Positions 2,895 through 59,599 of a stretch of 64,000 bases of DNA are shown here, piece after piece (positions within the stretch are counted from its first letter, which is position 1; every line of letters starts with the position of its first letter). A model generated the notes under the pieces. It worked only from the letters and a program-made list of their open reading frames with translations, had not been told where the DNA came from and ran no database searches. The position numbers and the translations under genes were made by a program. The stretch spans positions 24,317,968 to 24,381,967 of the forward strand of contig NC_036456.1 of NCBI RefSeq assembly GCF_002775205.1, written 5' to 3'. The DNA is from Xiphophorus maculatus. Lineage: Eukaryota > Chordata > Actinopteri > Cyprinodontiformes > Poeciliidae.

Positions 2895-4425
2895 ACTGAG
2901 CACTTTTATACATGAGGCCCCTGGAGAGGAGACAGAAAGGGAGGCCCCGTCTCTCACGTCATCAATGAAGAGAGTTAGGAATTGCCTTCATGTAAACCGT
3001 TACTCAGTTACTCTGCTGACCCTGCTGACCCTGCTGGCTCCCAGAGGAGGAATGCATCGACAAGAAGACAAAAAGAAAGACCAGCAAATGTTTTAGAGGA
3101 GAGAGATGATCTGTGCTGTGATTGATAAAATCCTGTAATAGAACAGCTACTGATCTTTATTTGTTTATGCCATGAGATAAGTATGATCTAAATGAAGTCA
3201 GGCTGAGTTATGAATCCAGATGTTCCTTGTATTGTTAGTGATGATGTTCCTGATGTTCTGCTGCCTCTCCTCCTCTTCCTCTCTCAGGATGAAGATGATC
3301 TCCAGGATCCTGCTGCTCCTCATCCTCAGCTCATGTCTCTGTGGTCAGTCTCCATCTTGTCTTTGTGACAGAAAGCTCTCTAGATGGAGCTGAAAGACTC
3401 CCATGTTCCAGTTCTCAGTGTGTCTGCTCCTCTCTTTCCCTCTCTGTCTCCTCAGCAGCAACATTTGTAGTGAATGTGACACAGAGCTGCTATCAGGCAC
3501 AGGAGAACCACAGCATCACTCTGGAGTGGACCTTCACCACCAAGACTCAGGGATCCTGGAGGGATCTGTTCATCTACTGTAGGCTGGTGGCTCCTCATAA
3601 AGAATTGATCTTCTATCAGGTCCATGGAGGTGTTGAGATTCCAGATTCTCAGGATGAACAGTTTTCAGGACGAGTCCAGATTGACAAAGACGTCCTCAGA
3701 GAAGGACGAATCAGACTCCATGTGTCCAGACTGAGGACTGAAGACTCTGGTCAGTATCTGTGTGACGTGAAAACTGAAGACGGTTCCGACAAGGAAAAGT
3801 GCCAACTCAACGGTGAGTTATTTGGTCAGTTTGTTTTTTTTTTTATTTTTTTTTTACTTTCTTTGAACTTTTTAGGTCTTTGTTGAGTATAAATAGAAAC
3901 TGTTTTTTAGTGAAATGCTTTAGCCTCTCTTTATTAAAGTTTATGTTTGATCACATCTCTAAGCACTAGAGGTCAGTAAGTTGACCTCACCATAGAGTGG
4001 TGATTCTAGATCAAATTCACCTGGGAAGTCAGCTGATCTAATAGATGAAAACTGTGATTCTATCACAATACTGCTGAAGAATGTGGCGTGCTGTGGTGGC
4101 GCAGGGGGTTAGCACGCCCCACATTTGGAGGACTTAGACCTGCGGACGTCGCGGGTTTGACACCCGGTCCCGACGACCTTTGCCGCATGTCCTCCTTCAA
4201 AAATGGCGCCGGCTCAGCTGGCTGCCTGCAGACACAGCTCCCGTTGTGTGTGTGTTAATCTGTGTATAAAAAAATTCTTGCTGCAACTGCGAAATAATTT
4301 CCCTGCTGGGATGAATAAAATAATTCTTCTTCTAAGACAAAAGTTCAACATCTTAATTTTATTTCATCATTAAAGTGAAACTGTGAAGTTAAAACATTTA
4401 ATTGGTTCAAGGGATAAATTAGTTA
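2895..4425 (+). repeat. Inverted duplicate shared by gene 3289-7492 and gene 24853-25382
   Basis: The 5' flank, signal exon, V exon and first part of the next intron match the minus-strand region 24515-25775. Similarity begins in the last about 30 bases of a GGGGCCTCAT-type MITE (2895-2926) and fades at about 4425. The copies differ by a SINE at 4080-4338 that is absent from the minus-strand copy. A weak CRE half site (CGTCA, 2957-2961) lies in the shared 5' flank. Confidence 0.8.
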
Positions 4426-7400
4426 CAGTTTCTGTGCCAGCATATATCATCATCAGAAACATATTTAGCTATGAGGGTTCTGACCCTCTCGGTCCATTAC
4501 CTCGGGCCAGCTCTGGTTAGAGGACCCAGAAATTGTAGTCCAGTCCAGAACTACTTTTTTGTGTGGAGTACCTCAAGGGTCAGTACTGAGACCAGTTTTA
4601 TTTAATTTGTATATAAATGACATAAGCAAAATGTCTAATGTATTAAATTTGTGTAATTTGTTGACGACACAAATATTCTTGTCTCTGGTGAAAACTTACA
4701 ACTTCTTTCCATAGAAATCAGTAAATTAAAGAAATGGTTTGACAATAACAAATTATCACTAAATTTGGACAAGACTAAAATCATGGTTTTTGGAAACTGC
4801 TACAAAAATACTAAAATTCAAGTTCAGATAGAAGGTGTAACTCTAGACAGGCTTTATGTTAATAAGTTTCTCAGTGTAATAATAGATGACAAAGTCAGTT
4901 GGAAATATCATATTAAACATTTACAGAATAAACTAAGCAGGAGCAAATCAATCCTGGCTAAAGCTAGACATGTTCTGAATAACAGAATAATATAATGTAG
5001 AGTTATTCTATATAACTCTCTGATTTTGCCATATTTAACATATTGTTCAGAGGTGTGGGGAATTATTGCAAAAGCTCTTTACAGCCACTAAATATCCTAC
5101 AGAAACGAGCCGTTAGAATCATCCATAATGTTGGTTATTATGAGCAACCAAACCCGTTAGTATTAAAATCTAGAATCCTTAAATTTGAAGAGCTTTAATT
5201 TAAAATGACTCAAATCATGTTTAAGGCATCTGTTGCCCACTCAAACAATAGTGATGTCGAGACATGCGGTGGTTGTAAATTTTCTTTAGTTTCATTTTTT
5301 ACTGAAAATACAAACAACATTCATAAATCCGACGTGCGTCAAACTATGGCTGCTATGTTCTACTGAGCTTCTTCAGCACAGAAACTTAGGACCCAAGGCT
5401 GCCCTAAGCGCCTGTTCAAAACTGATCCCTTTCTAAACTCTTTTCACTCTCAGCCAGAATAATTACCAACATATTTATGAATGTTCAGCTTAACATGGAC
5501 AATGAAACACAGAGCTTTATAATAGCAAAACAAAATATTCATAGGAAAGAAAATAGAATCATATTTTAATGGAAGAGGGTTTTGGGGGATTCCTTGGTCT
5601 AAAGTCCCCAGCAACTGGTCCCTCACACATCTAATAAAGTTCAGCCTGAGCTCATAGAGAGCCTGTTTTCTGAAAGAGATGGGGATATTACCGGTACTTA
5701 AGGGGAAACTCAAACTTAAGGATTTGTAGAAAAAGCTTTTTTATTTCAATTCATGGGGTAAAGTTATGAACAAGTTAAATGAGGAGTTAAAACAAAGTCA
5801 AAATTTATTAGTTTATTAGTGTTTAGATTAATCCAGACTGACCATCCTGGAGCTCTGAGCAACACTTAAAGAAGGAGCCGTGTGGTACCGGTACCGGTCC
5901 AGCTGCAGTCATCCTTCAGTCAAGCCGAACGTTTTGTGAATGAACCTTTATGGACAGAAATCATCTATATTCTGTAAATATAAACTTGTAAATATAATTT
6001 CTCTATTCAGAATAAACGTCCACATTCCCAGTCAATGGACTCTCTGACTCTCTGTCTGTCTTTAAATCGCTGAACGTTTTGCTGTTCAGGTATTTTCACA
6101 ATCTCTTTATTTTATCTTTTTTATTATTTGGATTTTTTCTTTCTTTAAAATGTATTATTTTTATTTTTGTGAGGCTACCTTATGAGCCCTGAAAGCACCT
6201 TTTAGATAAAATATATTATTATTATCATAAATACTTATACTGATACAACAACAAGGACGTTGCCATGGTTACTGGTTCACGTGGCGGCAGACTTCTTGGT
6301 ATCTATACTCATTTACATATATATTTATGGATGTTAACAGGGCGACCAGCAGCTGCTCTCTATTTCCAACAAATTGTGATTTATAATTAAAGGTGTGCAC
6401 GCCTTTATGCATCCGGATATTTTATCCGCCACACTTTTCTAAATTTGTATGTTTTAGTGTGAAAACTGAGCACCGTTTTATACATGAGGCCCCAGATCTG
6501 TTGTTCCAGTCCAGGTCAGAGTCCAGTGTCTCTCCTTGGTCTCTGTTGCTGCTGTGGAAGTGGACCGCTTCACTTTGACCTCTGACCTTTCTGCTCTGTT
6601 TTCTCTGTCCTGTAGTTTCTAAAATGATCTCAGCTGTTCCTGGACAGAGCGTCTCTCTGCCATGCCGACTCCCCAACATCAAACCTGCTGTGGTTGTGCA
6701 GTGGACCCGACCGGACCTGGAACCAGAATATGTCCTCCTGTTCAGAGATGAGCAGCCTGATCCAGAGAACCAGCATCCATCTTTTAGGAAGCGGGTGGAG
6801 CTGCAGGAAAGACGGATGAAGGACGGAGACGTGTCTTTGCTTCTGAGCAACGTGACGACCAGCGACTCGGGAAAATACGAGTGTCGAGTTTTTCAGAGAG
6901 TATCATCCGGCAGGAAGACAGTAAATTTGACCTCTGACCCCATCTGGATCGTCTTCCTGGATGTAGCGCCTCCTCCAGGTGAGTTTTCATGGTTTCTATA
7001 TCCCAGTGACAGAAGGAAGTTGCATAAAGTGTTTTAATGTTCAGATCAGTGAATCTTCTTAAAGGTGAAAATGTCTTTAGAGTCTCTGTGGGGGCTGTGG
7101 CTAATCTAAGGGGGAATATCCCTTTAAGGCCAGATGTGGTTCTGGTTCTGCAGTGAACCTGTCAGACCAGATGTTTGTTTTCTAAAGCTGCTGCAGAAAG
7201 CAGCTGGTCTGAGAGCAGCAGATGAAGAGAAATGGATTCTGACCTTCAGCTCTGATTCTGTTTTACAGAAAACGTGGTGGGAAGAAAAGAAGATGGAAGC
7301 AGAAACAACCATGTTGGACTGATTGTTGGAGCCATTCTGATTATTGGAGCCGTTCTGATCGCTGCACTGATTATTGGTTTGATTCTTCATCATTATGTTA

Positions 7401-7492
7401 TTAAAACAAAAGAAGAGGAAACAGAAGATGAACAGATCACCGAACTCACAGTGAGTGTTAAGGACGGTTCTAGTTCAGATCCCCAACCTTGA
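3289..7492 (+). CDS. Two-V-domain transmembrane Ig receptor (PD-L1/B7- and butyrophilin-like), gene A
   Basis: Likely cell-surface immune receptor or ligand. Exons: 3289-3343 (signal peptide MKMISRILLLLILSSCLC), 3456-3812 (V domain 1), 6616-6978 (V domain 2), 7269-7492 (TM and tail). All junctions are GT-AG and phase 1, and the lengths give 332 residues. Domain 1 has F-strand DSGQYLC and three other cysteines (SCYQ, FIYC, EKC), but LEWTF where a B-strand cysteine is expected. Domain 2 is canonical, with SLPCRL, VVVQWTRP and DSGKYEC. The last exon encodes a glycine- and isoleucine-rich TM, then an acidic tail (KEEETEDEQITE) with no ITIM. The 2.8 kb intron between the V exons holds a SINE, a LINE piece and a MITE. 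Gene 36652-38634 is the closest paralogue. Compared with it, the V1 exon lacks two codons before the donor. Exact orthology to B7 genes is inferred only. Confidence 0.8.
4080..4338 (+). mobile_element. tRNA-headed SINE
   Basis: Starts with a tRNA-like head (GTGGCGCAGGGGGTTAGCAC as A box, GCGGGTTTGACACCCG as B-box region) and ends with a LINE-like 3' tail, TTTCCCTGCTGGGATGAATA, then AATAATTCTTCTTCT. It lies in sense orientation inside the intron of gene 3289-7492. The paralogous intron near 24600 runs straight from ACTGCTGAAG into ACAAAAGTTC and is the empty site. A second copy of the head is at 14337. Confidence 0.85.
4545..5270 (+). mobile_element. Degenerate LINE reverse transcriptase fragment (CR1/jockey-like)
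   Basis: Translation in shifting frames gives the RT signature GVPQGSVL, then a catalytic box VDDT (usually ADDT), KWFDNNKLSLNLDKTK and a downstream thumb-like region including YCSEVWG. Frame breaks and stops (for example at 4993-4995) show it is dead. Both ends of the element are missing. It lies inside the intron between the two V exons. The stretch 5270-6240 that follows has no recognisable gene. Confidence 0.7.
6250..6492. mobile_element. Partial MITE of the GGGGCCTCAT family
   Basis: Matches the inverted complement of the complete element at 25750-26227 (for example the TAAATACATATATAG-like stretch and the AGAAGGCTGTCACC-like stretch) and ends with ATACATGAGGCCCC just before AGATCTGTTG. 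The same end at the same flank is present at 37680 before the second V exon of gene 36652-38634, so the insertion predates that duplication. Confidence 0.65.
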
Positions 7493-21446: not shown

Positions 21447-24400
21447 TCAGACACTTTGGTTTGATTTTCCCAGGTCCTGTAAAGGTTTTTCTTCAGCTTC
21501 ATCTCCTTGGTTACCATTTCCTCTGCGATCTATGAAACACAAAACAAAATGTTTTCAATAAAATCATCTTCTTCTGATTGTTTGATATCCCAAAGTAACA
21601 TTATTATTAAGATGGCTTGAATAAAAACAGAATTCTGTCATTTTTAGTTTTTCAAAAGAAAATTATCATCAATCAGCAACAAATAAAGTAAAGCAGTAAA
21701 GTTTTGACTTTTTCTAAAATTATTTGTCTTTCATTTGTTTCCAGATGCTTGTTGACAAAAATAAGACAATCCAGAAACCAAAGCATATTAAAATAAAAAT
21801 GTAAACATAGTCATATTAAATTGAATATGTAATGTATATTCAGATGAGGCTTGTCAGATTAAAATAACCTTTTAAATAAAACTTTCATTAAGGTAGAAAA
21901 CACGTCTTTCATTAATCTCTAGTTTCTTTTATTTTAATTGGTCTGATGTAATTATAATATTAAACATGTATTAATTGGCTATAAGCTTCTCTGTTGAAGA
22001 AAACACAACAAAGAAGAGAAAATCTGAGTTATGTGTTTGCAATTTTTAATAGATTTATTTATAGCATTTTATGGATGAATGTTGTTGGATTTTGTTTTCT
22101 TGATTCTTGGCTGTTTTTCTTTAGTGTTGTCCAGATCCGGGGCCACAGGTTGGTCACCTCTGGTCTAAACCTGCATATCACTGTTCAGGTCAGTGGGAAA
22201 GCTGGTGAGCCAGGAGTAAACCAGTCAGGTCACCAGTTCATTGCTGCTACATCAAATTATCTAGTCAGTCAGATTCAGTCACCAACAAGGAAGTTCAGTT
22301 TCCTGGTTTGATGCTCAGCTGTGATGTTCAGTGACTGCAGTCCTGCTTAGTTTATCAATGAGCAGGAAAATAATAAAGTAAATAATTAATATAAGTTAAT
22401 TATTACATAATTGTTCCATTTCCATACCTCCATCATTTCTCCCTTGTTCATTTTGAGACTTGTTGTTCCAGCATGGAAAAACTGTACACAACAGAAAGTA
22501 AACAACAGTGAATATTTAGCTTAACAATATAAATGAGTGACAATATTTAATTCTCCTTAACAGTTTTTGTCTGGTAAAAATGTTTCATCAACCTGGGCAG
22601 GCAGAAAGGCTACAATAAACAACAAAGACCTGAAAGAGAAAAAAGTTACTCATAATAATTTGGTTTCTTGTTTTTCTTTTCTTTTCAGACAAACACCAAC
22701 AGATATTGATAAATATGTGAAAACTGCATAACTTTTCTTACACATGTTTATCCAGACAGCTCCATGTTTCTGAGTTTTACTTCTCTTCAGCTTCAGATCA
22801 GTTTTTGCAAACTATTAAAAACTATAATTTTCTATCAATTGGAAATATGCATTTATGGAGAGAATCATTAATTCACCAAAATCCTGCAAGACTTACAAAG
22901 ACAATGACTGACTTACTTTGTTTACCTCTGTGGCGACGTACAACATAGATTATGAGGTGACGTACAACACAGTATGTGATGAAGGCGAGGATGATGAGTG
23001 CTCCAATAACAACACCAACAACAACACCACCAATAACTCCAGGATCAGATCCTGTGACAAAAAAGAAAAACAGGTTTTTAAAATTCCGCTTTTGAATATT
23101 TTGAATTCAATTTTGAATATTTTTGTTTTATTAATGAGATAAAAGTTGTGAACCAACAGTCACCTCATCATTCAGGGGTCAACATTTACTGCACCACACA
23201 CACACACACACAGTTATACACCAATATGCAGATCAAAAGGTATTTAGGATTTATCTGCTTTGCCCAACTGCACATCAACATGTGACAATAGGAAAAGCTG
23301 GAAGACAAATATTCAACCCAAAGAGCCAAAATCACTGCAGGTAACAAAGAAAGTCTAAAACTAAGTCAGAGTTCCAGTAACCACTGGTTATCTAGTTAAA
23401 CATACTGTATTTACCTCCAGGAACAGGAAAGTTGCCTTGGGCTCCATTTTCATATGTTGAGGAATTACATTAAGTGTTATAGACATCAATATATTTATCT
23501 GGTTTGTCTTAAATTATCTTAATTTTATATAACTCACCAAGTTTTAGAGTAACTTTCACCTTCCTGACTTGACTTTGCAGTTTGGGAACAAAACAAGTAT
23601 AATTCCCTTCATCCTCCTTGGTTACTTTGATCAATCTGAGGGAAATGTTTCCTTTTTTAAACTCATCATGGAACATAGAGGTTCTGCCCTGGTACTTTGG
23701 GTCTGAAGTTTTATCATCTTTAGCTCCACTGTGATGCAAATGTATTATTTGACCCTGGAATCTCCATTCGATTGTTAGACTGTTCACGTCAAATGGAGGC
23801 TCCAGATGACATGGCAGAATAACGTCGTCTCCCACCTTTGCATGTATCAAGTCATGACCACCAACCACCTTCTCTTGACCTGGAAGAATAAACAAAGATT
23901 TTAAAAAATCAGCACTAAAAATCCTGGTGACGTCCTGTTAGTTGTTCAGCTAACATTCATACCATTAATAGAGGTTTTTCAAAATAAATGTTTTTTTATT
24001 TGTTTACAAATGTATATCTACTCATTTTTTATTTACCTCTGTAAATGTAAAGATTATTTTGTGCACTTTTACAAAGTAAACTTGCTATTTCCTTTAAATC
24101 TTCATTTGAAATGTTAAGATTTGTGTTGTACCACATAACTCATGTTGAGTTTAGGACCCCATATCACCTTGGATCAGCCCTGAACAAAACACACCTCTGT
24201 GTATGAATGACTGCTTTCTTGATCACTGCTTAGGAAAAACACCCCATAAACTAAAATGTACCGTTGCTGCGAGTACCAAACCCTGTGAGAGTCAGGAGAC
24301 TCGGACCGTGGAGATCATGGCCCTGAGAAGCTGTGGTAGTCGTCCTTCATTTACATTTCTAAAATTTATGCACTCACAGCGCTTCACTGTGGAGGAGGAG

Positions 24401-27400
24401 CTGTAGCCAAGAGCAGGGAGAAAGGTGTGAGCAGCACATACAAGATGGTGATTGTCAGCACTAAGAGCCTTCTCCTGACTCTGGTTGGTTGTTTGGCTGA
24501 GAGTTTTATTTGCTTACAGATTTATTCCTTGAACCAATTTAATTTTTTACCTTCACAGTTTCACTTTAATAATGAAATAAAATTAAGATGTTGAACTTTT
24601 GTCTTCAGCAGTATTGTGATAGAATCACAGTTTTCATCTATTAGATCAGCTGACTTCTCAGGTGAATTTGATCTAGAATCACCACTCTATGGTGAGGTCA
24701 ACTTACTGACCTCTAGTGCTTAGAGATGTGATCAAACATAAGTTTTAATAAAGAGAGGCTAAAGCATTTCACTAATAAACAGTTTCTATTTATGCTCAAC
24801 AAAGACCTAAAAAGTTCAAAGAAAGGAAGAAAACTCTGACCAAATGACTCACCAGTAACGATGAGTCGACATTCAGCATTGTTGAATCCATCTTCAGTTT
24901 TCACGTCACACAGATACAGACCAGCGTCTTCAGTCCTCAGTCTGGACACATGGAGTCTGATTCGTCCTTCTCTGAGGACGTCTTTGTCAATCTGGACTCG
25001 TCCTGAAAACTGTTTATCCTGAGACTCTGGAATCTCAACACCTTCGTGGACCTGATAGAGAACTGATTCTTTATGAGGAGCCACCAAGCTGCAGATGATG
25101 AACAGTTCCCTCCAGGATCCCTGAGTCTTGGTGGTGAAGGTCCACTCCAGAGTGATGCTGTGGTTCTCCTCTGCCTGATAGCTGCTCTGTGTCACATTCA
25201 CTACAAATGTTGCTGCTGAGGAGACAGAGAGGGAAAGAGAGGAGCAGACACACGGAGAACTGGAACATGGGAGTCTTTCAGCTCCATCTAGAGAGCTTTC
25301 TGTCACAAAGACAAGATGGAGACTGACCACAGAGACATGAGCTGAGGATGAGGAGCAGCAGGATCCTGGAGATCATCTTCATCCTTAGAGAGGAAGAGGA
25401 GGAGAGGCAGCAGAACATCAGGAACATCATCACTAACAATACAAGGAACAACTGGACTCATAACTCAGCCTGACTTCATTTAGATCATACTTATCTCAGG
25501 GCATAAACAAATAAAGATCAGTAGCTGTTCTATTACAGGATTTTATCAATCACAGCACAAATCATCTCTCTCCTCTAAAACATTTGCTGGTCTTTCTTTT
25601 TGTCTTCTTGTCGATGCATTCCTCCTCTGGGAGCCAGCAGGGTCAGCAGGGTCAGCAGAGTAACTGAGTAACGGTTTACATGAAGGCAATTCCTAACTCT
25701 CTTCATTGATGACGTGAGAGACGGGGCCTCCCTTTCTGTCTCCTCTCCAGGGGCCTCATGTATAAAAGTGCTCAGTTTTCACAAAACATTTGCGGACAAA
25801 TTTAGAAAAGTGCAGCGCACAAAATAATTCTGGTGTATAAAGCCATATGGACGCACATTCCTGCGGACCTTTTGTTTATAAATCCCAATTTGCGGAAAAT
25901 AGAGCGCAGCTACTGCTCCGCCCTGTTGCCACCCATAAATACATATATAGATTAGTATAAATGCCCAGAAGGCTGTCACCATGTGTCCCAGTAACCGTGA
26001 CAACAGTCCTTGCTTGTAGCTATATAAGTATTTATAATACTGATAATTATATATTTTATTTAATAGGTGCTGTCAAGGCACATAAGGCCACTTCACAAAA
26101 AATAAAAGTAATAAATTTTAAAGACAATATTCTGAATAGGAAAATATTTATGCAAACTTTCACGCCACCTTCCTTTTTATACATGCTGACTTGTGCTTAC
26201 ATATGGTTTATTTATATATGAGGCCCCAGTTGTTCTGAGTACTGCGGTGGCTGACCTGAGTGAAGTTGGTACCCAAACCGTCTTCAAATCAGACAGAATT
26301 GGTGTCAAAAGTTTGTGCTACGTTTGTGCAGCAAAAATTTTCATTTCTGCTGCTATCATTTTAAAGATATAAAGAAATGTTTCTAGAGGTCATCCAAGGT
26401 CAACCAGCCTCCCCACCTTCATAAAATCAAACAAAATTGGTGTCAATCAACTCGGCTACGTTTGTGCAGCAAAAACTGATATTCATTGACCTTTGATGAC
26501 CTCTAGAAACATTTCTTTACATCTTTAAAGTGATAGCAGCACAAACTAAAAATGTTGCTGCACAAACCAGCACAAACGTTTGACACCAATTTTTTCTGAT
26601 TTGAAGAAGGTGGGGGGCCAACTTCAGGTCTGTGATGAAGTAGTTCTGTTAATCTGACACATCATCACACCTCCACCACCGTGCCTCACACTGGGAGGGG
26701 TTGGGCTGCTGAGGCTTTTTACTTCCTTTAGGAAACATATAGATAATTGAAACTTCATATAAAAAATTACTGTTGTTGCTTTAGTTCTTATTCTGCTATT
26801 TGAAGAAGATAAAAATATGGAATTATAAGTTAAATTTATTACACGATGCCTTCTGATTGGCTGTTAACTAATTCGTTTAAAAAGGACGTGTCTCAAATAA
26901 TTATAATAACTTTTTACTTCTTTATTCATTAAAGTTGTTTTTATTTGCTAGAGTATCCAGAGGTTTTACTCAAGAGCAGCAATAGTTCATAATAATATTA
27001 CTCAAGTAAAAACTACAGTGCAGTAAAACTCCTAAAAGTTTTTTTTTTTGTCTGAAAAATGGAATTAGTTATTTGAAGATTAAATCAACCAGAGGAAGTT
27101 TAATTCTCTGCCTGCAGCAGGATGAGCAGCAGTGATGTGTCCAGTTCCTGTCCCCAGTGGACGGCTGTCCTGCATGTTTAGCTGGGTTTGGGTTCATCTT
27201 AAAATTAAACCTTAAATATCCAGGATTTGATGTTTCAGACGCTGATGGACGATTTAAAACATTTTCTCATGAAGCTTCAGGTAAAATTTTATTTCACGGC
27301 TCAGATGAAAAGTTCTGATCAAAAAACTGACAGGAAATAGATCCAGTGATATCAGATCTGCTAACTTAGAGTGTAATTATTCCTAAGGAAACCTAAGACG

Positions 27401-31249: not shown

Positions 31250-32037
31250 AACAAGCTGACTTGCTCCAGAGATCTCTTTCTTGTCCTTCTGGCTGGACTC
31301 TGATCAATAGTCGCTGCTTTCAATATGTTCAAAAAAGCATGACTTGGGCAAGAGCCGAGGTGATTTCCAATAACATTGTGCTCTTAATTTCTTTTGTTCT
31401 TTGCTGAAGAAATCCAGCTACTTCTAACTTTTGTGTCTGTAGAGAAACTGTCTGTCCATGGGGGCAAACCTTGCATCAGTTCAGGACTTGAACGAGTACA
31501 ATCAGATTCAGATTATAGTAACTGCAGCAGGTCACGGGGCCAAACAAGCATGGATTGGAGGCACTAATGCACAGGAGGTATTGTTACCAGTACATTTTAT
31601 TTGTTGTGTATTTTGTGAAACATTGAATAAAATGTGTCATCTGCTGTATGTTGTCTTCCAGGAGAGTATTTGGTTGTGGAGCGATGGAAGCCGTTTCGAC
31701 TACACACACTGGTGTTCTGGACAGAATAATAATGATGGAGGCAACCAGCGCTGTTTACAGATAAACTATTCAGGTATAAGAAAATATCAACCCACTCTGT
31801 TTTATCGGTTGGTAAGATGACTCATGGGTAAAACTAATTTACTGTGCATGTGAACTTTTTAGTTGACCTGCATAAACATTTACTGAATTTACAGAAGGAG
31901 CTTATATTATTTTTCTTGTGGCAAAAGGGTTTTTATGATGTGATGTGTGATTTCTTTTCTTGTTCCTAGGTGCAAAGTGCTGGGATGACCTGGGGTCTAA
32001 TCACAATCTGCCTTCTGTCTGCGCCAAGAAACCCTGA
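31250..32037 (+). CDS. C-type lectin domain gene (ladderlectin/nattectin-like), 5' end not found
   Basis: A probably secreted carbohydrate-binding lectin. Exons: 31250-31359 (starts with CPSGWTLINSRCFQYV and MTWARAE after a short lead), 31443-31577 (NCLSMGANLASVQD, AWIGGTNAQE), 31662-31773 (WLWSDGSRFDYTHWCSGQN), 31970-32037 (CWDDLGSNHNLPSVCAKKP, stop at 32035-32037). Frames join cleanly with GT-AG sites. All six expected cysteines of the long-form fold are visible. The sugar-binding loop reads GQNNNDGG where relatives have EPN or QPD, so calcium-dependent sugar specificity may be altered or lost. No signal exon is recognisable upstream, where MITE-poor, TA-rich sequence lies; the gene may start farther 5' or be truncated. 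Confidence 0.8.
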
Positions 32038-33384
32038 AAACTGTGAGGTTCCCAAAGAGGCCAGATTTAAAACAGAACCAGTGGAGGGTCAGTGCTTTTT
32101 GTTTCTGTTTTCCTGCCTTTTTAACCTTCAGAAAACCCAGAGATATTTCTGCTTCTTTACTTCCTATAATTTCTCTCTTTAATGCAACCTAGAGAATGAA
32201 GCGACAAGCAAACAGCAACTGGATTGTCTCTCTGTAATAAGATCAGACTGAATGAGTCATAAGAAAGAATCATCTATGCAAAACTTTCTACTATTCTTTG
32301 GCCAAGCAAAATAAAACTTTTACGGTTTATTCTGTCTTTGTGTTTTGTTTTGTTTTCTGAAACATTTTCTGTTTCTTGAGAATCAGAATTTCTATCAATA
32401 GTTGGCTTATGTAATTATCAAAAATTACAATATTATTAATGAGATTATTAATAATGTTCAACTTTCTTTAGTTGAATCAGGAATTATTAAGTCAAACTTG
32501 TCAATATCTCGTGAACAAATGAATAACCTGATCAGGTTTTCTGGGTCAATAGAACCCCAGCATGTTGTACTATTTTACCTTTGTATGGAAGCCCAGAAAG
32601 CCCAAATGAAAAAGATAAAATCATCTTATAACATGGGTATCAAACTCATTTTCATTTAGGGCAATATCAAGATCATGAATGTCCTCAAAGTACTGACTGA
32701 ATTGATAAAAGCATCAGTTTGCCTACAGACACGATGAATATTATTATCAACTTTTGCAGATGTGCCCAAAGCTGGATGGCAGAAAGACGATTCTTTGACG
32801 TGCCATCCATAGCTGCGCTGCTGCAGTATAAAGACTCTGTTAAAAAACTTTAACAGGGAAATGTGGGTATTATTAAATTAGTGCAGTGCGCCACAGCAAA
32901 GGGAAAAATGACGCAGACCAACAGTTGAAGAACAACTCAAAAAGACTCATATTCTTTTTCTTGTTCATCTATTGGCTATGCTAGATACAGACCCATTGTC
33001 ATAGCAACTGACCGACAATAGCTTCACTAGTGTGTCAGAAATCAACACCAAGAAACGTGCAAACTATTCCCATACATGGAGTATTACATTTTCAGGCTTG
33101 ATGTTTTATTTACGATTATTAATAAGTGGCTATCTGAACACAGCAGTGGTTGATTAGCCAATTTAAACACCTGCACTACTGATGAACTGTCAGAGAGTTG
33201 CCTTTGTTTTTAACAGAACCGGATACACCAAATTCCTCAGCACATCTACATGTTAAGGTTGTCAAAGTCAAGCTAGCATAACTAGCCTACTTCCCGCTCC
33301 CTTTTCTCTAAATTAAAACTTTTTCCTGACCTGTGAAATGTGATACTCTTTGACCTTTTTATCTAGTTGTTGTAGTGAGTCCCT
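32038..33384 (+). other. Lectin 3' flank, non-coding
   Basis: 3' UTR and flank. It includes an 85-codon open frame without a good start (32402-32659) that is also open in the duplicate. No known domain. Confidence 0.4.
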
Positions 33385-36651: not shown

Positions 36652-38634
36652 ATGAAGATGATCTCCAGGATCCTGCTGCTCCTCATCCTCAGCTCATGTC
36701 TCTGTGGTCAGTCTCCATCTTGTCTTTGTGACAGAAAGCTCTCTAGATGGAGCTGAAAGACTCCCATGTTCCAGTTCTCAGTGTGTCTGCTCCTCTCTTT
36801 CCCTCTCTGTCTCCTCAGCAGCAACATTTGTAGTGAATGTGACACAGAGCAGCTATCAGGCAGAGGAGAACCACAGCATCACTCTGGAGTGGACCTTCAC
36901 CACCAAGACTCAGGGATCCTGGAGGGAACTGTTCATCTACTGCAGCTTGGTGGCTCCTCATAAAGAACTGGTTCTGTATCAGGTCCATGAAGGTGTTGAG
37001 ATTCCAGATTCTCAGGATGAACAGTTTTCAGGACGAGTCCAGATTGACAAAGACGTCCTCAGAGAAGGACGAATCAGACTCCATGTGTCCAGACTGAGGA
37101 CTGAAGACTCTGGTCTGTATTTGTGTGACGTGAAAACTGAAGATGGATTCAACTCTGGAAGATGTCGACTCAACGTTACTGGTGAGTCATTTGGTTAGAT
37201 TTTTATTTTTTACTTTGAACTTTTTAGGTCTTTGTTGAGCATAAATAGAAACTGTTTTTTAGTGAAATGCTTTAGCCTCTCTTTATTAAAGCTTATGTTT
37301 GATCACATCTCTAAGCACTAGAGGTCAGTAAGTTGACCTCACCATAGAGTGGTGATTCTAGATCAAATTCACCTGGGAATCACCATCTTGTATGTGCTGC
37401 TCACACCTTTCTCCCTGCTCTTGGCTACAGCTCCTCCTCCACAGTGAAGCGCTTTGAGTGCATAAATTTTAGAAATGTAAATGAAGGACGACTACCACAG
37501 CTTCTCAGGGCCATGATCTCCACGGTCCGAGTCTCCTGACTCTCACAGGGTTTGGTACTCACAGCAACGGTACATTTTAGTTTATGGGGCTTTATGCATC
37601 TGAACTTTTTGTGCGCCGCACTTTTCTAAATTTCTCCGTTTTAGTGTGAAAACTGTGCACTCCTTTAAACATGAGGCCCCAGATCTGTTGTTCCAGTCCA
37701 GGTCAGAGTCCAGTGTCTCTCCTTGGTCTCTCCTGCTGCTGTGGAAGTGGACCGGTTCACTTTGACCTCTGACCTTTTTGTTCTGTTTTCTCTGTCCTGT
37801 AGTTCATAAAAACATCTCAGCTGTTCCTGGACAGAGCGTCTCTCTGCCATGCCGACTCCCCAACATCAAACCTGCTGTGGTTGTGCAGTGGACCCGACCG
37901 GACCTGGAACCAGAAGATGTCCTCCTGTTCAGAGATGAGCAGCCTGACCCAGAGAACCAGCATCCATCTTTTAGGAACCGGGTGGAGCTGCAGGACAGAC
38001 GGATGAAGGACGGAGACGTGTCTTTGCTTCTGAGCAACGTGACGACCAGCGACTCGGGAAAATACGAGTGTCGAGTTTTCCAGAGAGAAGCAACTGGCAG
38101 GAAGAGACGCACTTTGACCTTTGACCCCATCTGGATCGTCTTCCTGGATGTGGCGCCTCCTACAGGTGAGTTTTCATGGTTTCTATATTCCAGTGAAAGA
38201 AGGAAGCTGCATAAAGTGTTTTAATGTTCAGATCAGTGAATCTTCTTAAAGGTGAAAATGTCTTTAGAGTCTCTGTGGGGGCTGTGGCTAATCTAAGGGG
38301 GAATATCCCTTTAAGGCCAGATGTGGTTCTGGTTCTGCAGTGAACCTGTCAGACCAGATGTTTGTTTTCTAAAGCTGCTGCAGAAAGCAGCTGGTCTGAG
38401 AGCAGCAGATGAAGAGAAATGGATTCTGACCTTCAGCTCTGATTCTGTTTTACAGAAAACGAGGAGGAAAGAAAAGAAGATGGAAGCAGAAACAAACATG
38501 TTGGACTGATTTTTGTAGCCGTTCTGATTATTGTAGCCGTTCTGATTATTGGTTTGATTCTTCATCATTATGTTATTAAAACAAAAGAAGAGGAAACAGA
38601 AGATGAACAGATCACTGAACTCAGTGAGTGTTAA
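36652..38634 (+). CDS. Two-V-domain transmembrane Ig receptor (PD-L1/B7- and butyrophilin-like), gene E
   Basis: The clearest complete member. Exons: 36652-36706 (signal MKMISRILLLLILSSCLC), 36819-37181 (V1), 37803-38165 (V2), 38456-38634 (TM and tail). All phase 1 with GT-AG ends; 960 bases give 319 residues. V1 has LEWTF, LFIYCSL, DSGLYLC and GRCRLNV. V2 is canonical with SLPCRL, VVVQWTRP and DSGKYEC. The TM reads VGLIFVAVLIIVAVLIIGLI, followed by a basic-to-acidic tail that ends in ELSEC, 16 residues shorter than in gene A because the frame differs after an AGTGAG. That AGTGAGT could also be a splice donor to an unseen tail exon. The intron between V1 and V2 is only 0.6 kb, against 2.8 kb in gene A. 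A promoter with two CREs lies about 0.6 kb upstream. Confidence 0.85.
37588..37680. mobile_element. MITE relic before the V2 exon of gene E
   Basis: About 90 bases ending TTTAAACATGAGGCCCC at the same flank (AGATCTGTTG) as in gene A. It is an internally deleted GGGGCCTCAT-type element older than the A/E duplication. Confidence 0.65.
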
Positions 38635-41600
38635 GGACGGTTCTAGTTCAGAGATCCCAACCTTGATCCTCAGAGTTCAACATCCTCCATGACTTGAATG
38701 TGACTTTGCTCTAACAACTTGATTGCAATGATTGCATCAGCTCCTCTGCAGGCCATCAGGTTCTGCTGAGGAGTTTTAATCATTGAATCATTTATGTGGC
38801 TACAGGGAAAGTCCTAAAGCCTGCAGGACTTTGGGCTCTGAGGACCAGGGTTGGGATCACTGCTCCAGTTGACCCAAGATTGGTTTCTTCAGCTGTTACA
38901 GTCGATATCTTGATGCAGTGAAAGTGAATTTTGGTATTTTGAACAAATCAGTTTAAAGAAGCAGGAACACATTTATTAAACATGTATGCACAAAGAAACA
39001 GTTTTGCAGCTTAAGAATCAATAATTTTATCTCCTGACTTTGTTCAAAACTGAGTGAGAAGAAATTTAAACTGTTATTATTCTTCAATATAAAACATGTA
39101 TGTATGATCTAAGAATAATATATTCCATATTATTTTAGTTTCTTTATTTCCTCCATAACTATTTCAAGATAGTTATATCTTCATATAACTTTGATTATAT
39201 TGTCATATAAATATATTTATGCTTGTATATTGTTTCCTTTCTTTAGCCTTGATGTTTCACAAAGTCACTTCACATGTTAATGTTCACATGCATTTCAATG
39301 TTATTCCATCCATCCATCCATCCATCTTCTTCCGCTTATCCGAGGTCGGGTCGCGGGGGTAGCAACTTCAGAAGGGAGGCCCAGACTTCCCTCTCCCCGG
39401 CCACTTCTTCCAGCTCCTCTGGGGGAATCCCGAGGCGTTCCCAGGCCAGCCGAGAGACATAGTCCCTCCAGCTTGTCCTGGGTCTTCCCCGGGGCCTCCT
39501 CCCGGTGGGACGTGCCCGGAACACCTCACCAGGGAGGGGTCCAGGAGGCATCCTGGCCAGATGCCCGAGCCACCTCAACTGGCTCCTCTCGATGTGAAGG
39601 AGCAGCGGCTCTACTCTGAGTCCCTCCCGGATGACTGAGCTTCTCACCCTATCTCTAAGGGAGAGCCCAGACACCCTACGGAGAAAACCCATTTCGGCCG
39701 CTTGTATCCGCGATCTCGTTCTTTCGGTCATGACCCAAAGCTCATGACCGTAGATGAGGGTGGGAACGTAGATCGACCGGTAAATCGAGAGCTTCGCTTT
39801 TTGGCTCAGCTCTCTCTTCACCACGACGGACCGGTACAGCGCCCGCTTGACAGCAGTCGCTGCGCCAATCCGCCTGTCGATCTCCTGCTCCCTTCTTCCC
39901 TCATTCGTGAACAAGATCCCGAGATACTTGAACTCCTCCACTTGGGGCAGGACACCCCCCCTGACCCGGAGAAGGCACTCTACCCTTTTCCGGCTCAAGA
40001 CCATGGCCTCGGATTTGGAGGCACTGATCCCCATCCCGGCCGCTTCACACTCAGCTGCGAACCCCTCCAGCGAGAGCTGCAGATCACGACCCGATGAAGC
40101 CAATAGGACCACATCGTCTGCAAAAAGCAGAGATGAGATCCTAAGGCCACCAAATCGGATCCCCTCAACACCTTGGCTGCGCCTAGAAATTCTGTCCATG
40201 AAAGTAATGAACAGAATCGGTGACAAAGGGCAGCCCTGGCGGAGTCCAACTCTCACCGGAAACGAGCCCGACTTACTGCCGGCAATGCGGACCAGACTCT
40301 GACACCGGTCATACAGGGACCTGACAGCCCGTATCAAAGGGCCCGGTACCCCATACTCCCGGAGAACCCCCCACAGGGCTCCCCGAGGGACACGGTCGAA
40401 CGCCTTCTCCAAGTCCACAAAACACATGTAGACTGGTTGGGCGAACTCCCATGCACCCTCCAGGACCCTGCCGAGGGTGTAGAGCTGGTCCAGTGTTCCA
40501 CGACCAGAATGAAAACCACACTGCTCTTCCTGGATCCGAGGTTCGACTATCCGACGGACCCTCCTCTCCAGGACCCCTGAATAGACCTTGCCAGGGAGGC
40601 TTAAGAGTGTGACCCCTCTATAATTGGAGCACACCCTCCGGTCCCCCTTTTTGAACAGGGGGACCACCACCCCGGTCTGCCAGTCCAGGGGAACTGCCCC
40701 CGATGTCCATGCAATATTGCAGAGTCGCGTCAACCAACACAACCTTACAACAACATAAGAATGTTATTCTTATTATTATTCATATCTGCATTGTGCCCTC
40801 CTTCTCTTTCTGCTAATTATTATTGAATATTTTTGCATAGTAATTATGTGTGAATGTTATCTTTTGGGTTTATTTTCAATAGGAATTTAATGTATATGAT
40901 TTTGTATAAAGTGTGTTTTTAATCTTACTGTATTAAATATCCTTATTGTTTTTTTCTAAAGTGTGATTATCAACTGCAGAGTAATTTTATATCTTTTATT
41001 CCCAGATCTATACAAAGTAGAATAGTTAAAGTAAAGACATAGAGGAATATAGAATATGCAGGAATTTCAGATCTAAAATATAAACTTATTCTTCCAAGAA
41101 CTGCAGTAAATATGATCAGATTTGATCAGACAGTTTATATGAGGTTTCCAGCAGATTTTATTTAATTCACTCTTTCAAAATGTTTATTTTTAGTTATGAG
41201 TTCTACATTAAATTGTACATTATTCCTTCCAAACAGTATAAACTTTGTTTTATTCAGGTATATTTAGAAATTATTTCTGTTAAAACTCAGGTCTAGTTTG
41301 TGTCTTCAGTCCTAATTGGATTGTTGAATTACTGATCACAAAAACATTTAAACTTCAATCATTTAATTTATGTATGTTGATATTTTGTTGCTGAGCTAAT
41401 AAAATATTCAACTTTTCTTGTTTCTTTGTTTTCAGTGTTTTTCAAACTTTTCTCAGTTAAATCTTTATCTTTATAGTTAAATAAATAAACAGGAAGTAGA
41501 AACATAGAATCTGATGAAAGATGTTCAATTAATGCATAAAAATAAATTAAATCAACAAATGTTACTAAATTATTTCATGTTGTTTCCTGATTCTGTTTCA

Positions 41601-45801: not shown

Positions 45802-47057
45802 ATGAAGATGATCTCCAGGATCCTGCTGCTCCTCATCCTCAGCTCATGTCTCTGTGGTCAGTCTCCATCTTGTCTTTGTGACAGAAAGCTCTCTAGATGG
45901 AGCTGAAAGACTCCCATGTTCCAGTTCTCAGTGTGTCTGCTCCTCTCTTTCCCTCTCTGTCTCCTCAGCAGCAACATTTGTAGTGAATGTGACACAGAGC
46001 AGCTATCAGGCAGAGGAGAACCACAGCATCACTCTGGAGTGGACCTTCACCACCAAGACTCAGGGATCCAATGGGAAACTGTTCATTGACTGTCATTTTA
46101 GATCATCAGTAAAAAAAGGGGTAACAAAATATGTTCATCGTGATGTTGATGAGTTTCCAGAGTCTCAGCATGAACAGTTTTCAGGACGAGTCCAGAGTGA
46201 CAAAGACGTCCTCAGAGAAGGACGAATCAGATTAAATGTGTCCAGACTGAGGACTGAAGACTCTGGTCTGTATCTGTGTGACGTGAAAACTGAAGATGGA
46301 TCCAGCAATGCAGAATGTCGACTCAGCGTTACTGGTGAGTTCATGTTGCAACATCTGAACTTTATAAAGTCTAAATGCTGAAAAAGTGAAATGAAACTGA
46401 AAAGATGCAGCAAAGTTTTTCTGATATATAAAAAAAAACTTTTGTGTTTTTCTGTGAAATTATTTCTTCCTGTTTCTCTTGGTTTTTATTTACTTAGATT
46501 ATTTTTTCCTCTGATTTAGTTTGAGGAAACTCAGACTGAGGTAAAAGTCCTAACTGGTTTCATCCAGAGAGTCGGAGAAAAATGAAAAGTTTTCATGTTT
46601 CTTTGTGACCAGAACCGACCCGGTTTATAAAGGTTAAAACAGAACCAAATGTTTCTGTGTTGTTTATATGGTTTCATGTTTAATTGTTTCCCATTAAACT
46701 TTATTCTTCTAAAGGTTTCTGTAATATTCAAACATCTCTTCTATCTTTCCAGCAGCTGCTGATGTCTCTCCAGTCCAGAGAACGACCTTGGATCCAGAAC
46801 CAGAAGGTCGAGGAAGGATCGGCCTCCATGTTTCTCTGTTACTGACAGCAGCAGCAGCAGCACCGTTGCTCAGTGGGTCGAGGAAGGATCGGCCTCCATG
46901 TTTCTCTGTTACTGACAGCAGCAGCAGCAGCAGCTCTGATGGTCAAACTTTTCCTGACTCTCAGTTCAAAGGGTTGATATGGATGATGATCCTGTGGGCA
47001 GGAAGGAGCTCCAGTAGCAGTCTGTGTTGGACTGAATATGAAGAAGCCTCTGACTGA
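45802..47057 (+). CDS. Single-V Ig gene with disrupted transmembrane exon, gene F
   Basis: Exons: 45802-45856 (signal, as in A and E), 45969-46334 (V domain, 366 bases), 46753-47057 (stalk onward). Phase 1 throughout; 241 residues. The V domain keeps the family frame (LEWTF, DSGLYLC, AECRLSV), but its middle (LFIDCHFRSSVKKGVTKYV) is unlike all other copies. The last exon starts with the family stalk (AADVSPVQRTTLDPEPEGRG) and enters a hydrophobic stretch, VSLLLTAAAAAPLL. A 70-base tandem duplication then shifts the frame, so the rest is serine-rich and polar, with one late short hydrophobic patch (LIWMMILWAG). The product is therefore probably secreted or poorly anchored, or the gene is decaying. 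Confidence 0.65.
46806..46945 (+). repeat. 70-base tandem duplication in the TM exon of gene F
   Basis: GGTCGAGGAAGGATCGGCCT starts at 46806 and again at 46876; each unit includes an (AGC)n run. Seventy is not a multiple of three, so the second unit is read in another frame. Confidence 0.92.
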
Positions 47058-47386: not shown

Positions 47387-47905
47387 GACTGCAGCAGGTC
47401 ACGGGGCCAAACAAGCATGGATTGGAGGCACTAATGCACAGGAGGTATTGTTGCCAGTACATTTTATTTGTTGTATATTTTGTGAAACATTGAATAAAAT
47501 GTGTCATCTGCTGTATGTTGTCTTCCAGGAGAGCATTTGGTTGTGGAGCGATGGAAGCCGTTTCGACTACACACACTGGTGTTCTGGACAGAATAATAAA
47601 GATGGAGGCAACCAGCGCTGTTTACAGATAAACTATTCAGGTATAAGAAAATATCAACCCACTCTGTTTTTTTGGTTGGTAAGATGACTCATGGGTAAAA
47701 CTAATTTACTGTGCATGTGAACATTTTAGTTGACCTGCATAAACATTTACTGAATTTACAGAAGGAGCTTATATTATTTTTCTTGTGGCAAAATTGGTTT
47801 TTATGATGTGATGTGTGATTTCTTTTCTTGTTCCTAGGTGCAAAGTGCTGGGATGACCTGGGGTCTAATCACAATCTGCCTTCTGTCTGCGCCAAGAAAC
47901 CCTGA
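47387..47905 (+). pseudogene. 5'-truncated C-type lectin copy
   Basis: Contains the last half of exon 2 (to 47444), exon 3 (47529-47640) and exon 4 (47838-47905) of the lectin at 31250-32037. Compared with it, NNND is now NNKD. The first exon and half of the second are missing because the duplication began there. Splice sites and frames are intact, so it could be spliced to foreign upstream exons, but on its own it cannot fold as a lectin. Confidence 0.85.
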
Positions 47906-49494
47906 AAACTGTGAGGTTCCCAAAGAGGCCAGATTTAAAACAGAACCAGTGGAGGGTCAGTGCTTTTTGTTTTTGTTTTCCTGCTTTCTTAACCTTCAGA
48001 AAACCCAAAGATATTTCTGCTTCTTTACTTCCTATAATTTCTCTCTTTAATGCAACCTAGAGAATGAAGCGACAAGCAAACAGCAGCTGGATTGTCTCTC
48101 TGTAATAAGATCAGACTGAATGAGTCATTAGAAAGAATCATCTATGCAAAACTTCTATTCTTTGGCAAAGCAAAAATAAAACTTTTACGGTTTATTCTGT
48201 CTTTGTGTTTTGTTTTGTTTTCTGAAACATTTTCTGTTTCTTGAGAATCAGAATTTGTATCAATAGTTGGCTTATGTAATTATTAAAAATTACAACATTA
48301 TTAATGAGATTATTAATAATGTTCAACTTTCTTTAGTTGAATCAGGAATTATTAAGTCAAACTTGTCAATATCTCGTGAACAAATGAATAACCTGATCAG
48401 GTTTTCTGGGTCAATAGAACCCCAGCATGTTGTACTATTTTACCTTTGTATGGAAGCCCAGAAAGCCCAAATGAAAAAGATAAAATCATCTTATAACATG
48501 GGTATCAAACTCATTTTCATTTAGGGCAATATCAAGATCATGAATGTCCTCAAAGTACTGACTGAATTGATAAAAGCATCAGTTTGCCTACAGACACGAT
48601 GCATATTATTATCAACTTTTGCAGATGTGCCCAAAGCTGGATGGCAGAAAGACGATTCTTTGACCTGCCATCCATAGCTGCACTGCTGCAGTATAAAGAC
48701 TCTGTTAAAAAACTTTAACAGGGAAATGTGGGTATTATTAAATTAGTGCAGTGCGCCACAGCAAAGGGAAAATGACGCAGAACCGTTGAAGAACAACTCA
48801 AAAAGACTCATATTCTTTTTCTTGTTCATCTATTGGCTATGCTAGATACAGACCCATTGTCATAGCAACTGACCGACAATAGCTTCACTAGTGTGTCAGA
48901 AATCAACACCAAAAAACGTGCAAACTATTCCCATACATGGAGTATTACATTTTCAGGCTTGATGTTTTATTTACGATTATTAATAAGTGGCTATCTGAAC
49001 ACAGCAGTGGTTGATTAGCCAATTTAAACACCTGCACTACTGATGAACTGTCAGAGAGTTGCCTTTGTTTTTAACAGAACCGGATACACCAAATTCCTCA
49101 GCACATCTACATGTTAAGGTTGTCAAAGTCAAGCTAGCATAACTAGCCTACTTCCTGCTCCCTTTTCTCTAAATTAAAACTTTTTCCTGACCTGTGAAAT
49201 GTGACACTCTTTGACCTTTTTATCTAGTTGTTGTAGTGAATCCCTTTTTCTTTATATGTCAGACGTACATGGGACTTTCAACATCAAAATGTGTTTGGAT
49301 CCGGGACTTTCCCACCAACCATTCTCAGGTGGTGATAATGGTTCTCCACCCTGGTTCTCAGTGCAGGCACAACACAGGGCTGTGTGCTCAGTCTGGTTCT
49401 GTTTACACTGTTCACCCATGACTGTGCAGCCATCCACTTCTCTGACAGGGATCCAAAGTTTGCAGATGATACAGCTGCAGTGGGTCTGATTCGC
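47906..49494 (+). repeat. 3' part of the duplicated lectin block, copy 2, with LINE piece
   Basis: Matches 32038-33633. Includes the copy of the 85-codon open frame (48267-48524) and the L2/CR1-like RT fragment at 49247-49490. Confidence 0.9.
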
Positions 49495-56116: not shown

Positions 56117-57006
56117 ATGTTTCTGATCCTGCTGCTCCTCATCCTCAGCTCATGTCTCTGTGGTCAGTCTCCATCTTGTCTTTGTGACAGAAAGCTCTCT
56201 AGATGGAGCTGAAAGACTCCCATGTTCCAGTTCTCAGTGTGTCTGCTCCTCTCTTTCCCTCTCTGTCTCCTCAGCAGCAACATTTGTAGTGAATGTGACA
56301 CAGAGCAGCTATCAGGCAGAGGAGAACCACAGCATCACTCTGGAGTGGACCTTCACCACCAAGACTCAGGGATCCTGGAAGAATCTGTTCATCTACTGCA
56401 GCTTGTTGGCTCCTCATAAAGAATTGGTTCTCTATCAGGTCCATGAAGGTGTTGAGATTCCAGAGTCTCAGGATAAACAGTTTTCAGGACGAGTCCAGAT
56501 TGACAAAGACGTCCTCAGAGAAGGACGAATCAGACTCCATGTGTCCAGACTGAGGACTGAAGACTCTGGTCTGTATCTGTGTGACGTGAAAACTGAAGAT
56601 GGATTCAACAAGGCATTCTGTCGACTCAACGTTACTGGTGAGAAGAAATATTTTACTCAGATAAAATCCTGAGACCTGAGTTGTTGAATTTCTTCATCTT
56701 CTACATGAATCCTCCTGGATCTCAGTTTTCATCAAATATTAATAAATATTTCTGATTTCTCTCCCAGCAGCTGCTGATCAGATCCAAACTCAGAGACCAA
56801 CTTTGACTCCAGAACCAGAGAGACGAGGAAGGAACATCTTCATCATCACTCTGGGACTGACAGCAGCTTTACTGGTTCTAATAATAATATTAATAATAAT
56901 AATAATAATGTTGATTATTTGGTTTAGGATGAAAAGGAAGAATCATTTTGAATCAAGTGTAGATGAAAAAAAACCCCAGTACAGATCATGGGTTTGTTTG
57001 CTATAG
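56117..57006 (+). CDS. Complete single-V transmembrane Ig receptor, gene G
   Basis: Exons: 56117-56162 (signal MFLILLLLILSSCLC), 56275-56637 (V domain), 56768-57006 (stalk, TM, tail); 648 bases, 215 residues, phase 1. The V domain has LEWTF, LFIYCSL, REGRIRLHVSRLRTEDSG and YLC, with a last-strand cysteine (FCRLNV). The stalk reads AADQIQTQRPTLTPEPERRG. The TM contains an (ATA)n run that lengthens an isoleucine stretch, then IIWFRMKRK and a short tail ending SWVCLL, with no ITIM or ITAM. The ATG differs from the other copies: the usual MKMISR start is replaced by MFLIL because the upstream sequence is different, so this gene probably uses its own promoter. Confidence 0.8.
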
Positions 57007-59091: not shown

Positions 59092-59599
59092 CTCAGAGAA
59101 GGACGAATCAGACTCCATGTGTCCAGACTGAGGACTGAAGACTCTGGTCTGTATCTGTGTTACGTGAAAACTGAAGATGGATTCAACTCTGGAAGATGTC
59201 GACTCAACGTTACTGGTGAAAAGAAATCATGTAATTAATTTTTTTCCACTCAGTTCAAATTCTGATCCTGTATTGATGAACCAACATCTTCATCTTCTAC
59301 ATGAATCCTCCTGGATCTCAGTTTTCATCAAATATTAATAAATATTTCTGATTTCTCTCCCTGCAGCTGCTGATCAGATCCAAACTCAGAGACCAACTTT
59401 GACTCCAGAACCAGAGAGACGAGGAAGGAACATCGTCTTCATCAGTCTAGGATCAATAGTAGCTCTGATGGCTCTAATAATATTGATTATTTGTTTTAGG
59501 AAGAGGAGAAAGACAATGAAAACTAATCATTTGACAAGAGTAGATTTAAAAAAACAACAACAAATAGATAACAATGTTGTTCACTTTACAATTGTTTAA
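59092..59599 (+). pseudogene. Truncated Ig gene H: 3' half of V exon joined to a LINE, plus TM exon
   Basis: The V part (59092-59215) begins at REGRIRLHVS and keeps DSGLYLC (then YV instead of DV) and GRCRLNV before its donor. The second exon, 59367-59599, reads the family stalk (PTLTPEPERRG), the TM SLGSIVALMALIILIICF and a tail ending NVVHFTIV. Signal exon and the front half of the V domain are lost, replaced by the LINE. The LINE frame from 58981 runs in frame into the V remnant (KKGIKKAKH then LREGRIR). No signal peptide is available, so a surface product is unlikely. Confidence 0.75.

Follow-up and report, generated by a model that had tools for sequence, protein, structure and literature searches.

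In a 64,000-nucleotide stretch of the Xiphophorus maculatus genome (contig NC_036456.1, positions 24,317,968 to 24,381,967; the whole stretch is referred to as the window), the first immunoglobulin (Ig) domain of each of five clustered genes, here called D1, carries a reciprocal exchange of two core residues. The core signature of a classical Ig domain is given as a cysteine on each of strands B and F and a tryptophan on strand C (IgStrand paper). D1 has its tryptophan on strand B (residue 24, W24) and a cysteine on strand C (residue 41, C41), together with the cysteine on strand F (residue 102, C102). The exchange is secure. C41 and C102 are probably joined by a disulfide across strands C and F.

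Exchanged residues in the window copies

Five intact Ig V-type D1 domains were found in the window, four on the plus strand and one (24853-25215) on the minus strand. The D1 exons are of phase 1, and each listed interval was translated in its third frame. The exons, and the key codons of gene 1, are as follows.

3456..3812, plus strand: gene 1 D1 exon, V-set with swapped Cys/Trp (from translation)
24853..25215, minus strand: gene 2 D1 exon, swapped, reading ITLEW ... LFIIC ... YLC
36819..37181, plus strand: gene 3 D1 exon, swapped; the copy used for modelling
45969..46334, plus strand: gene 4 D1 exon, swapped (LFIDC)
56275..56637, plus strand: gene 5 D1 exon, swapped
3488..3490, plus strand: A-strand Cys (residue 11) codon of gene 1, the only one of the five window copies to have it
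3527..3529, plus strand: B-strand Trp (residue 24) codon of gene 1, TGG
3578..3580, plus strand: C-strand Cys (residue 41) codon of gene 1, TGT
3761..3763, plus strand: F-strand Cys (residue 102) codon of gene 1, TGT
3800..3802, plus strand: G-strand Cys (residue 115) codon of gene 1

On translation, all five copies read ITLEW, then LFI(Y/I/D)C, then YLC. A first-pass annotation had described this pattern in every intact copy (with LFIYC, LFIIC or LFIDC as the second motif), and it held when the codons were checked: TGG on strand B, TGT or TGC on strand C and TGT on strand F in 5/5. The further cysteine that the same annotation had placed before the end of the last strand was recovered on strand G (C115) in all five copies and in 155 of 181 distinct alpha domains (defined below). 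A frame, splice or assembly error was considered and is excluded by the agreement of the five copies, by the database match of gene 1 and by D2, the second domain of genes 1 and 3. The spliced product of gene 1 matched X. maculatus RefSeq LOC111611191 isoform X2 (P0002) with 100% identity and coverage, except that the RefSeq protein is one Ala shorter where exons 1 and 2 join. In genes 1 and 3, D2 shows the ordinary C..W..C pattern and acts as an internal control for D1 against such errors.

Fold assignment and sampling across fishes

The Pfam V-set family (PF07686) matched D1 of gene 3 with 34.2 bits (gathering threshold 26; E 3.1e-8; residues 9-119) and was the best Pfam match of gene 1 D2 (E 2e-15). 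Neither hallmark of PF07686 was intact in D1: the B and F cysteine pair was broken by Trp at position 24, and the core Trp of strand C was replaced by Cys at position 41. In PD-L1 the cysteine is on B and the tryptophan on C, the reverse of D1. A profile-to-PD-L1 alignment, ungapped from the N-terminus through strand C, set W24 opposite the strand B cysteine and C41 opposite the strand C tryptophan, bearing out the reciprocal swap that had been proposed by eye. A confident AF2 model of gene 3 D1 put W24 on strand B and C41 on strand C, and D1 has the PD-L1 IgV fold. Siglecs and CD4 were absent among the 50 VIA rows listed, an absence with no bearing on their relation to D1. On this reading D1 is an IgV domain of PD-L1 type that belongs to a family of fish surface proteins. 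PD-L1 is described as an IgV followed by an IgC domain (PMC12151841), whereas what follows D1 is a V-set D2 in gene 1 and, in other genes, a different Ig domain or no further Ig domain. With a signal peptide, an N-terminal PD-L1-like V domain and a transmembrane segment, the layout is suggestive of a ligand or receptor at the cell surface.

The wider family was sampled in part, from the best 120 of 890 and the best 120 of 1198 matches of two large searches. The 192 fetched proteins were divided into 310 Ig segments with a hidden Markov model (HMM), and 206 segments were kept that had W, F or L as residue 24 and filled ≥95 of the 120 columns; among the 104 left out are truncated rows and the canonical domains of paralogues. 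The kept segments comprise 192 distinct rows, labelled in this analysis as 181 alpha and 11 beta domains. Among the alpha domains, W24 was present in 179, C41 in 180, C102 in 179 and C115 in 155. Residue 24 was Phe in P0047 and Leu in P0079; residue 102 was Leu or Ser in P0070 and P0128, where the D1 reading breaks off nearby; residue 115 was another residue in 21 rows and a gap in 5. Residue 39 was Ile in 173/181 and residue 40 highly variable, and residue 41 should therefore point into the core, where the Trp normally sits. Swapped rows came from five percomorph lineages: Ovalentaria (Xiphophorus, Parambassis), Pelagiaria (Scomber), Anabantaria (Channa), Eupercaria (Xyrichtys, Sebastes) and Carangaria (Scophthalmus). 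Given a single origin, the swapped state would be older than the split of these lineages. Phe occupied the place of PD-L1 F19, reported as a residue able to touch PD-1 (PMC12151841), in 163/181 alpha domains; its conservation is a weak hint of a PD-1-like partner.

That the swap is unreal, an artefact of misalignment with the canonical Cys pair and the Trp located elsewhere, is scarcely credible. Two alignments involving D2 speak for it: a global MAFFT alignment put the C-strand Trp of shorter D2-type domains against W24, and an HMM alignment placed the gene 1 D2 Trp a column past C41. The PD-L1 profile alignment and the model nevertheless both assign W24 to strand B and C41 to strand C, and no earlier cysteine is conserved (residue 11 is Cys in 20/181); a canonical B cysteine elsewhere was rejected on that alignment and that count. 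SWRELF, named in the first-pass annotation as the motif whose Trp might occupy the normal core position, did not supply it: its Trp, W34, is modelled in the stretch linking strands B and C and occurs in just 64/181 alpha domains, compared with 179/181 for W24. Cys 11 occurred with C115 in 18 of its 20 rows, about the rate expected from C115 alone, and an A-G bond between the two is possible.

The beta domains were collected with the first domain of P0135 as query, which gave 10 proteins in all, two of them already known. The 11 beta domains are those of P0185-P0192, the second domain of P0047 and the first domains of P0135 and P0091; names among them include two PD-L1 (Channa) and two PD-L1-like (Trachinotus, Mastacembelus). 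Residue 24 was Trp and residue 41 Ile, Val or Leu in 11/11. Residue 102 was F or S in 5/11, which thus have neither C41 nor C102. Cysteine was found at D-strand residue 75 in 11/11 and at E-strand residue 87 in 10/11, and a D-E bond (75-87) is plausible because D and E are neighbouring strands. Residue 75 was also Cys in 29/181 alpha domains, none of them with Cys at residue 87. A 47-row alignment of alpha and beta domains had 7 invariant columns, W24 among them and no Cys, with C102 nearly invariant. In a tree built from 85 rows of the 206 after removal of the key columns, the 11 beta rows were split from alpha on a branch with support 100/99, and the changes counted were 2 at residue 41, 4 at residue 102 and 2 at residue 24. 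Its midpoint root serves the drawing alone; many nodes lack resolution, bootstrap values had not converged, and the branch leading to P0091 is long.

A probable C-F disulfide and competing explanations

Cysteines on both the C and F anchors invite a cross-strand bond, and these anchors are reported to share one stretch of GFCC' sheet backbone contacts (IgStrand paper). C41 on strand C would bond C102 on strand F, its same-sheet neighbour, so that an intrasheet bond would replace the B-F intersheet bridge, with W24 packing into the core from the facing sheet. Either half of the exchange would take one third-position change (TGY to TGG on B, TGG to TGY on C). The order we infer passes through a three-cysteine stage (B, C and F) that would keep one bond throughout, followed by loss of the B cysteine. 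No such intermediate was seen among the sampled domains: no row among the 310 HMM segments combined C24 with C41, and in the 7 rows with Cys at 24, position 41 held E, H or R or was a gap.

D1 shares the residue pattern of CD4 D2, with no B cysteine and cysteines on C and F. In CD4 D2 the B cysteine was lost and a strand C cysteine gained, the latter ~75 million years ago, and the Cys130-Cys159 bond on C and F lies within one sheet (PMC4354306). CD4 D2 already has a C-F bond, and the structural idea for D1 is a variant of that case. The two differ in that CD4 D2 is C-like and belongs to a single protein, whereas D1 is a V-set domain with Trp at B, in a multigene family spread over five percomorph lineages.

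Siglec V-set domains have an intrasheet bond in place of B-F, between strands B and E, and D1 differs from them in having no B cysteine. In titin I-band Ig domains with a cysteine triad on B, F and G, alternative intradomain bonds between core strands are described, with B-G preferred where more than two triad cysteines are present (PMC5766482); D1 has Trp in place of the B-strand member and has the strand C cysteine. The D0 domain of KIR2DL4 offers another non-canonical cross-strand bond in an immune Ig domain, an A-B bond (Cys10-Cys28) that alternates with B-F (PMC13371052), and again D1 lacks the B cysteine.

A bridge between strands F and G, with C102 paired to C115 and C41 left as a free core thiol, is improbable. 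C115 is common in the alpha set, at the frequency given above, and titin domains with a CysF-CysG pair exist (PMC5766482). However, C41 and C102 are both retained in every one of the 21 alpha domains that have a different residue at 115; beta rows with F or S at 102 keep C115 in 5/5 (P0047, P0135, P0185, P0186, P0187); and the model hairpin would place residue 115 beside residue 100, not 102. Just as improbable is the absence of any stable intradomain disulfide, with a Trp-packed core sufficing as in CD2 and the cysteines free or interchain. The 47-row alignment fits it, W24 being invariant, C102 nearly so and C41 and C115 neither, as do the 5/11 beta domains with C41 and C102 both lacking, and CD2 is a named exception to the B-F bond (IgStrand paper). 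Against it, C41 and C102 are almost universal in the alpha set, their positions are sheet neighbours according to the IgStrand paper, and the protein layout would fit an oxidising cell surface.

Some results weigh against the C41-C102 bond or the PD-L1-type assignment beneath it. A first AF2 model, from an alignment (A2) of 38 rows that were 67-94% identical to the first, reached a predicted local distance difference test score (pLDDT) of only 40.1 and was not used. A single-sequence Protein Data Bank search ranked an antibody chain and CD276, both partial matches, above PD-L1 by E-value; PD-L1 came lower, yet matched along most of D1. The searches were seeded with swapped sequences and filtered at residue 24, so that sampling favours the swap pattern. 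C102 is kept without C41 in one alpha domain (I41, P0050) and in 6/11 beta domains. Co-loss of C41 with C102, examined by independent pairs, gave just 2 pairs and p 1.

With the C41-C102 bond still preferred for alpha, a wider account is offered tentatively, as a possibility somewhat short of even. The B-strand Trp, and not the disulfide, would be the fixed core anchor, so that the disulfide could move: B-F in a PD-L1-like ancestor, C-F in alpha, D-E in beta (residues 75/87), with some beta domains having neither C41 nor C102. Once relocated, the bonds may serve as redox switches in PD-L1-like surface proteins that are diversifying. For the C-F bond in particular, a switch role would be an addition to the structural one: the bond would be strained and cleaved by thioredoxin or PDI, altering binding or dimerisation. 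By analogy, Trx1 reduces the CD4 D2 bond (PMC5192061) and the KIR2DL4 D0 cross-strand bond governs ligand binding (PMC13371052), but near-invariance is compatible with a structural role too, and this addition seems rather unlikely. Were the C-F bond as labile as in CD4, the family would be redox-tunable and PD-L1-like, which is directly testable.

Among the titles and abstract openings listed from the open-access literature, none named the fish family or a reciprocal V-set Cys/Trp exchange, and no report was found there of such an exchange being fixed across a multigene family of PD-L1-like V-set domains alongside another cluster with its Cys pair at different positions. This is weak evidence of absence, and subscription journals lie mostly outside that coverage. 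Exchange of two of the three signature residues suggests that the Ig fold may be rewired by two single-base changes, and the natural states (a C-F pair, a D-E pair, or neither C41 nor C102) provide material on the Ig domain's need for a bridge. A rule requiring the canonical Cys pair would overlook D1-type domains.

Gene structures and divergence in the window

The other exons of the five genes, and one partial copy, are as follows.

3289..3343, plus strand: gene 1 signal-peptide exon, MKMISRILLLLILSSCLC, 100% to P0002 residues 1-18
6615..6978, plus strand: gene 1 D2 exon, V-set, ordinary C..W..C
7268..7492, plus strand: gene 1 transmembrane and cytoplasmic exon, including the stop
25329..25382, minus strand: gene 2 signal-peptide exon
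23413..23880, minus strand: gene 2 second Ig domain, of a type that differs from D2 (tblastn with P0052)
21450..23052, minus strand: gene 2 transmembrane/cytoplasmic blocks 23052-22918, 22484-22425 and 21530-21450 (tblastn with P0052 and P0096)
36652..36706, plus strand: gene 3 signal-peptide exon
37802..38165, plus strand: gene 3 D2 exon, ordinary C..W..C
38455..38634, plus strand: gene 3 transmembrane exon
45802..45856, plus strand: gene 4 signal-peptide exon
46752..46974, plus strand: gene 4 probable transmembrane/tail region (tblastn with P0109)
56117..56162, plus strand: gene 5 signal-peptide exon, whose start codon differs (as the sequence reads; match from 56126)
56752..56907, plus strand: gene 5 possible transmembrane/tail region (matches of 40-59%)
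59092..59214, plus strand: partial D1, the last 41 residues, with the F and G cysteines retained

D2 of gene 3 is 90% identical to D2 of gene 1, and since the latter is best matched by V-set, the products of genes 1 and 3 would both be V-V. The tail of gene 3 (38470-38660) is shorter than that of gene 1, with ITELSEC followed by a stop as read from the sequence. Gene 2 occupies 21450-25382 on the minus strand in six exon blocks, with a second Ig domain unlike D2 of genes 1 and 3. No D2 match was found by tblastn of the window near genes 4 and 5, nor in gene 4 between D1 and the tail, and both appear to pass straight from D1 to a transmembrane tail, more clearly in gene 4.

D1 was compared pairwise among genes 1, 2, 3 and 5, gene 4 being omitted for its extra codon. 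Outside the CC' and FG segments (D1 codons 34-56 and 103-116) silent change was between 0 and 0.017; it ranged from 0.14 to 0.43 within CC' and from 0.09 to 1.02 within FG, and amino-acid change was likewise concentrated in CC' and FG. Gene conversion of the framework is suspected because silent change outside CC' and FG is near zero; the pattern looks like a homogenised framework with diverged candidate binding segments. Pairwise ratios of nonsynonymous to synonymous change (dN/dS) among the four copies gave no clear sign of positive selection.

Between D1 and D2 of gene 1, positions 4530-5260 resemble, by eye, a decayed reverse-transcriptase fragment of the long interspersed nuclear element (LINE) type. 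Long direct repeats of 98-99% identity lie at 31521-33219 and 47388-49080, spaced ~15.9 kb apart.
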